A stretch of DNA of 64,000 nt from contig NZ_WPCC01000002.1 in NCBI RefSeq assembly GCF_009741925.1, positions 124,001 through 188,000 on the forward strand. The letters are read 5' to 3'. A program made the translations under genes and the position numbers. The stretch is from Natronomonas sp. CBA1123 (GTDB taxonomy: Archaea; Halobacteriota; Halobacteria; Halobacteriales; Haloarculaceae). Of this stretch, positions 19,990 to 59,399 are shown piece by piece. Numbering within the stretch: the stretch's first letter is position 1; each line of letters begins with the position of its first letter. The notes under the pieces were generated by a model that saw only the letters and a list, made by a program, of their open reading frames with translations, was not told where the DNA came from and made no database searches.

Positions 19990-20502
19990 GGCTCTGTTGA
20001 AATCATCAGAAGGTGACAAGTTCTGCCTCGGTGCGGTCAATACAGAGAGTGTATGCATCAGTCGCCCGATGCCTAATATTGTTGATTAGTAGTTTTGGTT
20101 CCTAACTAACAGGTTTTATATAATATTCAAAAAAATTTGCAAACATGGATACAGAAGCGTCGCTACTCTCCATACGGCGGTGGCTCATGATCATCTCTCT
20201 ACTGCTCGTTGTTCAGGTCTACTACAGCGCACAGAGCAATTACTCAGTTCCACCCGGTGGAAACACTATGATACTGGGCCTTCTCGGTCTTGGGTTCGTG
20301 GTAGTCGGTTCTCTTGCTTTGTCTTTTTTCGAGAACCAGTAGAGGATGGCGAGTCCTGCTTCGACTGACTTGCGCTGTGTACTCATCACAACTCCTTGAG
20401 CAGGTGTGCTGATTGGCAGGAATCCCAGCGGTCAATACGCACTCCTACGTAACGACTGTTTCAGTAAGAGAGGTGTCGAACTAATAGGGTTTCAACAGAG
20501 CC
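19990..20502. mobile_element. 513-bp IS6-like non-autonomous element with cargo gene, 8-bp TSD
   Basis: The left end begins GGCTCTGTTGAAATC (19990) and the right end is GGTTTCAACAGAGCC (to 20502), the inverted copy. The flanks are identical 8-bp direct repeats, GGTTGGAA at 19982-19989 and again at 20503-20510, which is a target-site duplication and shows that the segment moved as a unit. End sequence and 8-bp duplication both fit IS6-family transposition. Inside there is no transposase, only the 65-residue membrane protein gene. The region 20343-20502 holds no other gene. Confidence 0.8.
20145..20342 (+). CDS. Cargo of the IS6-like element: small two-TM membrane protein
   Basis: A 65-residue protein with two hydrophobic helices (WLMIISLLLVVQVYY and MILGLLGLGFVVVGSLALSFF) separated by a polar loop SAQSNYSVPPGGN. 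A strong TATA-like region (TTTTATATAATATTC, about 20114-20128) lies at leaderless spacing before the ATG, so the gene carries its own promoter within the element. It is not similar to a transposase. The other element of this kind in the window carries a different, exported protein. Confidence 0.65.
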   Translation: MDTEASLLSIRRWLMIISLLLVVQVYYSAQSNYSVPPGGNTMILGLLGLGFVVVGSLALSFFENQ

Positions 20503-27645: not shown

Positions 27646-27660
27646 GGCTCTGTTGAAATC
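27646..27660. repeat. Solitary IS6-like left end GGCTCTGTTGAAATC
   Basis: Identical to the left end of the element at 19990, and it stands just before another small membrane-protein gene. No matching right end or copy of the flanking octamer GAAATATC was found downstream, so the element is incomplete or decayed. Confidence 0.55.
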
Positions 27661-27689: not shown

Positions 27690-27992
27690 CTACCGTGGCC
27701 CAAGGATCACTTCGGGGGCGAAGACAGTGAGGTAGAGTAGACCAGTCAACCACAGAATCGCAGCGACACGCAAACCACCTGCTATCCGTCGACGCTCCGT
27801 TGGAAGGGATTCAGCGAATCCAGACAGAGCGAATCCAACCGCCATAATAAGCGAACTGATGGAGGACCCATCGCGTAGAACACCATAGTAGATGTAGATA
27901 CTCAACATAGCGAGCGAGCTGGCAAACATTACGGCCGCCTGGCGTCTTCCAGATGGTTCACTGAAAACAACGGCTTTGATTCTGGAGGGCAT
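27690..27992 (-). CDS. Small membrane protein next to a solitary IS6-like end
   Basis: A 100-residue protein with three hydrophobic segments (AAVMFASSLAMLSIYIYYGVL, SSLIMAVGFALSGFAESL and VAAILWLTGLLYLTVFAPEVIL). The ATG at 27992 (MPSRIKAVVF) is preferred to an upstream in-frame ATG at 28085, which would add a less membrane-like stretch. Its stop lies ~30 bases from the transposon-like end at 27646. That matches the pattern of the two complete elements in the window, whose cargo is also a small membrane or exported protein. Confidence 0.55.
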   Translation of the reverse strand: MPSRIKAVVFSEPSGRRQAAVMFASSLAMLSIYIYYGVLRDGSSISSLIMAVGFALSGFAESLPTERRRIAGGLRVAAILWLTGLLYLTVFAPEVILGPR

Positions 27993-44533: not shown

Positions 44534-44700
44534 GTGAACTACCCTACCCTACTCGCTCACAGCTTGCGCGGTTCGCTCGTTGAGGGTAGGGCTTCCTGCT
44601 TCCACGACGCGCTTTGCAGATACTGACGTATCCACAGGGAGCGCAGTCTCCACAGGCGTTGATTCGGAGTGTCCCACTCCTACGTCTTCGAGGCCGCGAG
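44534..44700 (-). ncRNA. Predicted omega (reRNA) guide RNA at the tnpB 3' end
   Basis: The 3' part of tnpB and the following bases contain complementary CCCTACCC (about 44580-44592) and GGGTAGGGTAG (44537-44550 region) segments that can fold into a hairpin, ending in GTAGTTCAC at about 44534. In TnpB systems the guide RNA overlaps the 3' end of the gene and runs a short way into flanking DNA. Here the guide would read from 44533 downward (AAAGCCATCTACAAG). The exact 5' end is not visible. Confidence 0.45.
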
Positions 44701-45793
44701 AAAGAATGTTCCACGCCGCGTTCGCGTCCCTGTCTGCCTCAAACCCGCAGGCGGGACAGGAATGTTCGCGGACCCACAACGGCTTCTCCGTCGAAGTCCC
44801 ACAGGCCGCACACTCCTTGGTCGTCCCTCTCGGGTTGACCGCCACGAAGTGCGTCCCCTCCCGCTCGCACTTGTACTCAAGTAGTGAGAGGAACGTTCGC
44901 CATGCCGCTGACGCCGTGTTGCGGCTGTTCGACGTCGATTCGAGCATCCCCTTCACGTTCAGGTCTTCGACCGCCACGAGGTCGTACTCCCGAGCGTAGT
45001 AGTTCGAGAGCTTGTGCAAGAAGTCGCGCCGCTTCCGTCGGAGGTTGGCGTGACACTCTGCGACCCGCCGCCGTTGCTTCTCGTAGTTGTTCGACCCGTG
45101 CTGTTTCCGCGAGAGGGACCGCTGTTCACGTTCCAGCCGCTCCCGTTCGGCGGAGAGGTCGAGCGACCCGACGGCGTGACCGTCCGTATCGTGAGCGTAC
45201 TTGAGAATCCCCACGTCGATTCCGACGCACCGCTCGGGATTCTCGGGCGGTTCGGGCGGGTCACGGTCCAGTTCGATGCCGAACGTGGCGAACCACTCGC
45301 CCGTCGGTTCCTTCTTGACCGTGACCTGTTTCACGGTGTCGTCGTCGGGGATGGCGCGGTGAAGCCGAATTGGTATGTCCGCGAGTTTCGAGAGTGACAG
45401 GACAGTCTGACCGCCCTTCTTGTCGAGCTTGAAGCCACACTGGCTGTACGTGAAACTTCGGAACTCCCGTGGCGGCTTCCACTTGAGGTGACCGACGCCG
45501 TAGCCGTTATTCTTGAGTTCCCCGAGGGACTTGACGTTCTGCTCAATTCGCATGACAGTCGTTTGTAGGACTGTCGAGTACACGTCGGAGAGGCCATCCC
45601 ACCAGTCTTTGAGACTGGGAAGTTCGTCTCGGATGGACCGAACACGCTGATTGAGCGTGCCTGCGTCCTCGGGGATTTGGTTGAAGCGGTAGAGCGCGTG
45701 ATTGTAGAGTTGCCTACAAATGTCTCGGTGGCGGTCCAACTCCTCTCGGTGGGCATCGGACGGCTTGAGACGGTACTTGTAGGCGTAGTACAC
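44549..45793 (-). CDS. tnpB: TnpB RNA-guided nuclease (IS200/IS605 group, IS1341 type)
   Basis: A 414-residue TnpB. The split RuvC nuclease is complete: Asp193 in GIDVGILKYA, Glu276 in VAVEDLNVKGM and Asp354 in EADRDANAAW. The zinc ribbon CAACGTSTE ... CPACG (Cys 328, 331, 346, 349) lies between. No TnpA transposase is adjacent, so it is an IS1341-type stand-alone unit that cuts DNA guided by its omega RNA. Translation begins at GTG 45793, two bases after a small upstream gene. The hairpin at its 3' end is annotated separately. Confidence 0.9.
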   Translation of the reverse strand: MYYAYKYRLKPSDAHREELDRHRDICRQLYNHALYRFNQIPEDAGTLNQRVRSIRDELPSLKDWWDGLSDVYSTVLQTTVMRIEQNVKSLGELKNNGYGVGHLKWKPPREFRSFTYSQCGFKLDKKGGQTVLSLSKLADIPIRLHRAIPDDDTVKQVTVKKEPTGEWFATFGIELDRDPPEPPENPERCVGIDVGILKYAHDTDGHAVGSLDLSAERERLEREQRSLSRKQHGSNNYEKQRRRVAECHANLRRKRRDFLHKLSNYYAREYDLVAVEDLNVKGMLESTSNSRNTASAAWRTFLSLLEYKCEREGTHFVAVNPRGTTKECAACGTSTEKPLWVREHSCPACGFEADRDANAAWNILSRGLEDVGVGHSESTPVETALPVDTSVSAKRVVEAGSPTLNERTAQAVSE

Positions 45794-45924: not shown

Positions 45925-46246
45925 AGTATTCACTATATGCACAAAAACGTTGCGATTGCGTGGGCCTGTGGGCCTGCCACAGAATTGTGTATGAGAACTA
46001 TGCGGCGCTGTATCCCCTCCCTGCTCGCGCCTCCCGTTCGGTCGGCGCTCGCTGAGGAAGGGGGCTTAGCGCCTACTTTCAGCTAAACTCCTACCGACCA
46101 TTCGAATCGCTAGCCGGCTGTGGTGGGTCGCAACTTGATTTTGGTAAATGGCTCACAAAAAGGGTTTAACGCTTTTCTACAGGCAGAACCGAATGAATGC
46201 CTCGGAGTTTGACGCTGTGATAGCTGTCGCCAATTTATATCAAATT
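45925..46246. other. Upstream region of the tnpB unit with IS-like left end and scar
   Basis: Contains the tnpB-unit promoter, GC-rich dyads (CTCGCTGAGG, about 46,025-46,075) that may belong to the element's left end, and at 46176-46212 the segment resembling 41395-41430. No gene is seen. It ends at the target duplication ATCAAATT of the next element (46239-46246). Confidence 0.4.
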
Positions 46247-47033
46247 GGCGCTGTTGAAATCCTCAGTAGATGATACATTGCCCCCAGTCCCGGTTAATAC
46301 AGATGACCCGCTTACCGACATAGAGCACCAACCTACCGACCTTGTGTCAAAACTGGCGTGCTACATACGGAGAGTGTTTTCACCGCGATGTCTTCGTTTC
46401 TTTCAGGTGGCACCTACAGAATTGGGCTCGCAGTGGGTGTGCGAGACCGTCAGTCTCGTTCCATCCCCCTTTCGGGGTAGATGCGGAATACGACGGCATC
46501 ACTGGGGCCGTCGTCATCCGGCGGGAAGAAGTGGATGTGGCCTTTGTCGAAAACGCCCGGGTACTTTGCAGAACCGAACTCCCTCCACGCCCTGTACCGG
46601 ACGACGTAGGGTCTGGACTCGGCAACGGCCTCTCGTAGTGTCATCGACGGGCCGCTCGCGTCCTCCTGCCGTGGCTCAATGTCTATCCGTTCGAAGTACA
46701 CCCTCGCTTGCTCCGGTGCAGACTGATTCCCGTCGGTCCGAAACAGTTCGAACTCGACCCTGTACCAGCTTTCAGAGTGGTTGAACACGGCAAGGTTGAG
46801 CGGTACCGACTGAGAGGAGAAATCCGAGCAACCGGCACAGCTGGCCACTACACCAGTTGTCCCCATGAGGAACTGGCGGCGATCCATATTCGCGATGGTC
46901 TCCCGAGAACTAAGTGTCTTGCCTGTACTTGGCAGTTTGAGTCTATGATATTGGATCTTGAGCTGGTGGCTATGCGCCCTGTATGCAGCACTGCGCCTGA
47001 AACCTATCACTTGTTGAGGGTTTCAACAGAGCC
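46247..47033. mobile_element. 787-bp IS6-like non-autonomous element with cargo lipoprotein gene, 8-bp TSD
   Basis: Left end GGCGCTGTTGAAATC (one change from the 19990 element), right end GGTTTCAACAGAGCC up to 47033. The flanks are identical octamers, ATCAAATT at 46239-46246 and 47034-47041. Left ends in the window share GTTGAAATC and right ends share GTTGAAACCC when read inward, so the two ends are distinguishable and conserved between elements. The only gene inside is an exported protein; no transposase. Confidence 0.8.
46450..46887 (-). CDS. Cargo of the second IS6-like element: Tat-exported lipoprotein
   Basis: A 145-residue protein that begins MDRRQFLMGTTGVVASCAGCSD: a twin-arginine signal (RRQFL) and a cysteine lipobox, so it should be exported folded and lipid-anchored. 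The mature part (VPLNLAVFNHSESWYRVEFELFRTD and YVVRYRAWREFG) resembles small haloarchaeal beta-sandwich lipoproteins. The longer frame upstream of ATG 46887 destroys the signal and is rejected. It lies wholly within the transposed segment. Confidence 0.72.
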   Translation of the reverse strand: MDRRQFLMGTTGVVASCAGCSDFSSQSVPLNLAVFNHSESWYRVEFELFRTDGNQSAPEQARVYFERIDIEPRQEDASGPSMTLREAVAESRPYVVRYRAWREFGSAKYPGVFDKGHIHFFPPDDDGPSDAVVFRIYPERGMERD

Positions 47034-47054
47034 ATCAAATTAAAAATACAGCGT

Positions 47055-59384: not shown

Positions 59385-59399
59385 GATTCCAACAGAGCC
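59385..59399. repeat. Solitary IS6-like end, GATTCCAACAGAGCC
   Basis: Matches the inverted right end of the two complete elements except at a few positions (GATTCCAACAGAGCC against GGTTTCAACAGAGCC). No partner end was found. It lies in the gap between the SDR and the flavodoxin gene (59,325-59,489), which otherwise holds nothing recognised. Confidence 0.4.

Follow-up and report, generated by a model that had tools for sequence, protein, structure and literature searches.

Among the described elements that resemble the one reported here, MIC231 of Bacillus cereus derives from an IS231/IS4-type element. It has the ends of an insertion sequence (IS), lacks a transposase, carries an intact non-transposition gene and is presumed to be mobilised in trans (PMC6542083). 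ISH2 of Halobacterium is also short and without transposase, and is moved in trans by ISH8 (PMC10264941); a non-transposase ORF has been reported in ISH2-type elements (PMC3119063). Transporter insertion sequences (tIS) carry passenger genes beside the transposase. Finally, the ISHla2 group of the IS5 family has the same ends and transposase family as the elements described below.

We have analysed a window of 64,000 nucleotides of the genome of Natronomonas sp. CBA1123 (contig NZ_WPCC01000002.1, positions 124,001 to 188,000). A sequence-only reading had described here a 787-bp unit, its end types and a perfect octamer duplication, ATCAAATT, and all of them were borne out by a scan for ends and target-site duplications (TSD) (Table 1). 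The left end had been quoted as GGCTCTGTTGAAATC; the type of end was right, although the actual sequence is GGCGCTGTTGAAATC, with one mismatch. The polarity claimed for the unit, GAAATC at the left and GAAACC at the right, is indeed present in it but is not diagnostic across elements, since T/T, T/C, C/T and C/C ends appeared 15, 12, 7 and 4 times among 38 elements without transposase. Allowing up to two mismatches, the end motif had seven occurrences in the window, where 0.11 were expected, and exactly two complete elements (ends with no more than two mismatches plus TSD) were present, the focal one and the sister cassette of Table 1.

Ends found on 16 plasmids of haloarchaea were 80-88% identical to the right subterminal region of the focal element, which also resembles some transposase-bearing elements at their distal end. 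Within its own genome the whole element is a single copy, and when the whole element served as query in a distant DNA search, plasmids matched at the right end alone, with no second cassette. When we looked for the empty site in relatives, the right-flank gene was present and no clean empty site was found, because the left flank is not conserved in them. At 46228-46250 there is a perfect 9-bp palindrome, CGCCAATTT-ATATC-AAATTGGCG, that takes in left flank, duplication and the element's initial four bases. It is completed by the one base in which the left end departs from the consensus (GGCG for GGCT), a change that resembles the outcome expected from template-switch correction of a quasi-palindrome. 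Also to the left, at about 450 bp from the element, lies a 414-aa ORF (44549-45793) similar to IS605 OrfB/TnpB and with zinc-finger CxxC motifs.

Table 1. Features of the focal element and of related elements in the window and elsewhere in the host genome.
Feature	Position	Strand	Basis or remark
Very probable non-autonomous mobile insertion cassette of 787 bp with ends of IS5/ISHla2 type	46247..47033	.	ends + TSD scan
Left terminal inverted repeat GGCGCTGTTGAAATC	46247..46261	+	one mismatch to consensus
Right terminal inverted repeat, reading GGTTTCAACAGAGCC; GGCTCTGTTGAAACC as read on minus strand	47019..47033	-	no mismatch
Left target-site duplication ATCAAATT	46239..46246	+	perfect 8 bp
Right target-site duplication ATCAAATT	47034..47041	+	perfect 8 bp
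Right subterminal region, conserved, about 60-70 bp	46964..47033	-	similarity to other haloarchaeal ends
Cargo gene P0001, predicted 145-aa Tat-exported lipoprotein, small beta-sandwich with conserved HxH motif	46450..46887	-	ORF, homologs, predicted fold
DNA homology (70%) with non-element homolog L028, another genus	46439..46928	-	gene + about 40 bp upstream
Sister cassette, 513 bp, TSD GGTTGGAA	19990..20502	.	ends + TSD scan
Sister-cassette cargo gene, 65-aa membrane protein, two transmembrane (TM) segments	20145..20342	+	
Solo left end of decayed third element	27646..27660	+	end-motif scan
Cargo beside solo end, 99-aa membrane protein	27693..27992	-	homology
Host-genome element with three-TM protein	G000:C27:37952-38652		7/8 duplication
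Host-genome element with Tat lipoprotein	G000:C9:181990-182833		7/8 duplication

The cargo had been read as a Tat lipoprotein gene, and the intact ORF agrees with this prediction, its product starting MDRRQFLMGTTGVVASCAGC, that is, a twin-arginine motif plus a lipobox. Two partly overlapping searches retrieved about 40 haloarchaeal homologs, with an invariant cysteine and an HxH motif. The predicted structure was a beta-sandwich (mean pLDDT 82), and a fold search against the PDB gave no match above TM 0.5; therefore we have assigned no function to the protein. Inside elements with ISHla2-type ends the only homologs were the focal copy and one insertion common to two genomes, one of them Haloglomus halophilum, and around the non-element homologs we found no convincing inverted repeats of other kinds with duplications. 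The DNA homology to the nearest of these, L028, is limited to the gene and its immediate upstream DNA, which fits the capture of a host-type gene. Between both copies the dN/dS was 0.61, indicating weaker constraint than in other cargo. The cargo lipoproteins of six other elements (L056, L120, L182, L234, L071 and L046) are distant relatives of each other; when compared as profiles with the focal family the probability was 97.5%, with a match that is partly signal peptide. One phage match of the focal search, BJ1 V9, was discarded: it is located among cellular-type genes, in a record described as that of a mutant with an insertion, and is probably host DNA.

The sequence-only reading had labelled the unit IS6-like. 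Accordingly labelled, it would be an IS6-derived cassette moved by an IS6/IS26-like transposase via cointegrates, and both the 8-bp duplication and the GG...CTGTTG-like tip do resemble the IS6 consensus ends (PMC7986276). However, an 8-bp duplication agrees with IS6 and IS5/ISHla2 alike and does not discriminate between them, because it is common to IS5/ISH1-type elements. The IS6/IS240 transposase (PF13610) was searched for in the host assembly with no match, and the true IS6 elements that we found in nine sampled relatives had GGCACTGTCTAGTT or GGYAGTGTTYAGWT as detected ends, different from the focal-type ends, GGCTCTGTTGAAAYC. What is found between focal-type ends is a transposase of the IS5 family (NF033579, E=3.6e-64; PF01609, E=4.7e-14). 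The IS6 label is thus wrong, and we give an IS6 origin hardly any credence.

Transposases from elements with focal-type ends, 273 aa when intact and starting at nt 53, are 69-100% identical to the query transposase; one relative is named ISHla2 in RefSeq, and the query matches it at 82%. The ISHla2 copy on pHLAC01 had no matching target duplication. The focal element has terminal repeats and subterminal DNA in common with transposase-bearing members: its right end matches fewer of them, over about 60 bp, than that of the sister cassette, which matches many over 60-75 bp. It encodes no DDE transposase, which relatives with the same ends have, and thus combines IS ends with an intact gene unrelated to transposition. 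Other classes were considered and rejected. A MITE, short and non-coding, is excluded by the 145-aa gene and its homologs; a composite transposon, by the presence of only bare ends, with no two flanking IS copies; a transporter IS, by the lack of a transposase, passenger plus transposase being seen in the relatives L072, L182 and L052.

We have examined the distribution of these ends in the haloarchaea. The exact motif was found in 78 of 146 genomes of the family and in 302 of the 392 genomes sampled for the class, and the reversed motif, our control, gave zero in the listed tallies. Reading the surroundings of about 200 ends, and taking as an element any paired ends with a target duplication of at least 6/8, we obtained 63 distinct elements (44 with perfect duplication), against 0-2 when the pairing was repeated at shifted offsets. 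A transposase or its remnant, often accompanied by passenger genes, is carried by 25 of the 63, and most transposase-bearing elements show 8/8 duplications; the remaining 38 have no transposase. In our reading, the focal element is very probably a mobile insertion cassette that originated from a haloarchaeal IS of the IS5 family, ISHla2 group.

For its movement such a cassette presumably depends on an ISHla2-type transposase acting in trans. In the mechanism that we propose, an IS5-type DDE transposase from elsewhere in the cell would bind the ends of about 15 bp together with some 30-60 bp of subterminal DNA and would carry the unit to a new 8-bp target, duplicated on insertion. The interior is a host-type Tat-lipoprotein gene, accompanied by about 40 bp of DNA from upstream of that gene. 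In full-length relatives the passenger genes follow the stop codon of the transposase and precede the right end, and loss of the transposase from one of these passenger-bearing elements could leave a cassette like the focal one. We infer the mobilisation in trans and the route of capture, as well as any benefit that the lipoprotein might have for the cell. The only IS5 transposase in the host assembly was a 92-residue C-terminal fragment (residues 182-273; L245, G000:C13:204477-204752), which lies on the contig that also contains the window. Repeats may be missing from the assembly, which is split into 89 contigs.

The third element of the window is represented by a solo left end, for which neither a right end nor a matching duplication was found. 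The 99-aa protein beside it and the passenger of L076, an element with transposase from another genus, are about 44% identical. One further solo end, GGCTCTGTTGGAATC, with one mismatch, was seen on the minus strand at 59385-59399, with no partner identified. Beyond the window, the host genome contains two more elements, both with imperfect duplications (Table 1).

Pairs of related elements indicate that such units move, cargo included. L046 and L122, from two species, are Tat-lipoprotein cassettes with 85.9% identity over positions 198-904 of the query, in which the element occupies 201-903; the homology stops at the element tips and the flanks are unrelated. The same element-bounded homology, with different TSDs, appears in L108 and L149, where a membrane protein accompanies a decayed transposase. 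The L046 gene was also found in a third copy, which is carried by a Haloprofundus plasmid and had no detectable ends, and in L293 (NZ_CP083667.1) there is an intact lipoprotein gene 86% identical to the L046 cargo for which the record's (incomplete) gene table lists no gene. A 1.8-kb stretch comprising a two-lipoprotein element and its flanks (L120/L202) was 100% identical in two genera (G014 and G085), reflecting either recent transfer or contamination. As the finding that would count against it, the sequence-only reading had named random genomic DNA without intact genes in most copies; instead, 66 of 76 element segments had a called cargo gene. Homologous cargo pairs with enough change had dN/dS values of 0.10-0.36 (Nei-Gojobori) and no stops, the second copy being in some pairs one located near an end, with element membership not established. 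The cargo genes are intact and mostly under purifying selection, weaker in the focal gene.

The sequence-only reading had also suggested that the family captures or spreads envelope-protein genes, and proposed tabulating the cargo as a check. We did so with one gene caller for elements and flanking DNA, the final version including the right arms of transposase-bearing elements and a lipoprotein rule, and with length-matched genes flanking the same elements as controls. Two-TM proteins and lipoproteins made up 27 of the 62 cargo genes of up to 160 aa and 82 of the 383 flanking genes (OR 2.8, p=3e-4), an enrichment of uncertain size because several cutoffs were used, some elements are related and TM segments were assigned by hydropathy only. 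For lipoproteins alone the figures were 7/62 and 6/383 (OR 8, p=6e-4). Four lipoproteins that we recognised by inspection (L046, L056, L041 and L230) are missed by the caller or given a wrong start, so that the test of envelope bias errs on the conservative side. Leaving out three host-genome elements, 24 of 59 cargo genes were of envelope type (OR 2.5, p=0.0017). With an earlier caller the enrichment was lower (OR 1.75-2.2 for the cargo as a whole, 1.75 for genes of up to 200 aa), and the result of the first, based on synonymous codons, was dropped as too insensitive.

About half of all cargo genes code for soluble proteins. These are varied (GNAT, UspA, SRPBCC-type, low-molecular-weight (LMW) phosphatase, HTH regulators, hydrolase plus cupin, NUDIX plus HAD), with one operon of VOC and DoxX-like proteins, recognised by inspection only. 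The suggestion therefore holds as a modest bias among elements that have their ends in common but differ in cargo, not as a rule. L088 and L090, from one genome (G124, same genus), carry an SBF-family ten-TM transporter and an LMW phosphatase (PF01758, PF01451), types that both include arsenic-resistance proteins.

The bias could reflect a slot for passengers on the right-hand side of the transposase in ISHla2-type elements, one that favours small envelope genes to the benefit of element or host. Behind the transposase, 15 of 23 right arms of 200-700 bp in length had an ORF for a two-TM protein or a lipoprotein, whereas 1.1 would be expected from random genomic segments, a generous control because random segments cut genes. 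The ISHla2 copy of pHLAC01 has in this position an annotated 57-aa protein with two TM segments. Besides, passengers are unrelated in sequence and found in either orientation, suggesting repeated acquisition, and the gene-level enrichment points the same way. However, this effect is only 2-3 fold, the soluble half of the cargo does not fit, and short genes suit small elements whatever their product, so that we regard such a slot as rather doubtful. It is similarly improbable, in our estimate, that ISHla2-type IS5 elements are a class-wide dispersal system whose exchangeable slot has recruited unrelated small membrane proteins and lipoproteins many times, and we are just as sceptical that this slot has much the same effect as a cassette system for envelope genes would have. 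Alternatively, any small gene caught between ends would hitch-hike neutrally, and the bias would be that of the accessory-gene pool of haloarchaeal plasmids. The diversity of the cargo, the location of many elements on small contigs and controls that are only partly plasmid-borne are consistent with this. Purifying selection on the cargo and the recurrence of homologous cargo across genera (e.g., L051/L193, L054/L063 and L076/window) argue against it, as do the controls themselves, already largely accessory pool because they flank the same elements. We see hitch-hiking as possible, if somewhat unlikely.

Given the share of class genomes in which the ends occur exactly, small envelope genes may commonly travel among haloarchaea on gene-carrying elements of less than 2 kb, for the most part without annotation. 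At 57-160 aa, many of the cargo genes are so small that they are readily overlooked, as in the case of the cargo-type lipoprotein absent from its record's gene table. The element set provides concrete cassettes for the study of transposition in trans, of the capture route and of the value of small lipoproteins.

We found no description of such cassettes in haloarchaea or in the ISHla2 group in the open-licence literature, which is weak evidence of novelty because the search covered only open-licence papers. Compared with the ISHla2 group, the focal element has a lipoprotein gene in place of the transposase. MIC231 is built in the same way but comes from a different IS, whereas here the ends are of IS5/ISHla2 type and the cargo varies from copy to copy. 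ISH2 is, like the focal element, a short haloarchaeal element without transposase; its copies are uniform, 531 bp long, and mostly duplicate 10 bp, while in the focal family 8 bp are duplicated and each copy usually has a different gene. The tIS resemble the full-length relatives, and the focal element differs from them in its lack of a transposase, which was either lost or never present. Both mobile insertion cassettes and transporter ISs are already known kinds of element, of which the focal family is a widespread haloarchaeal variant.
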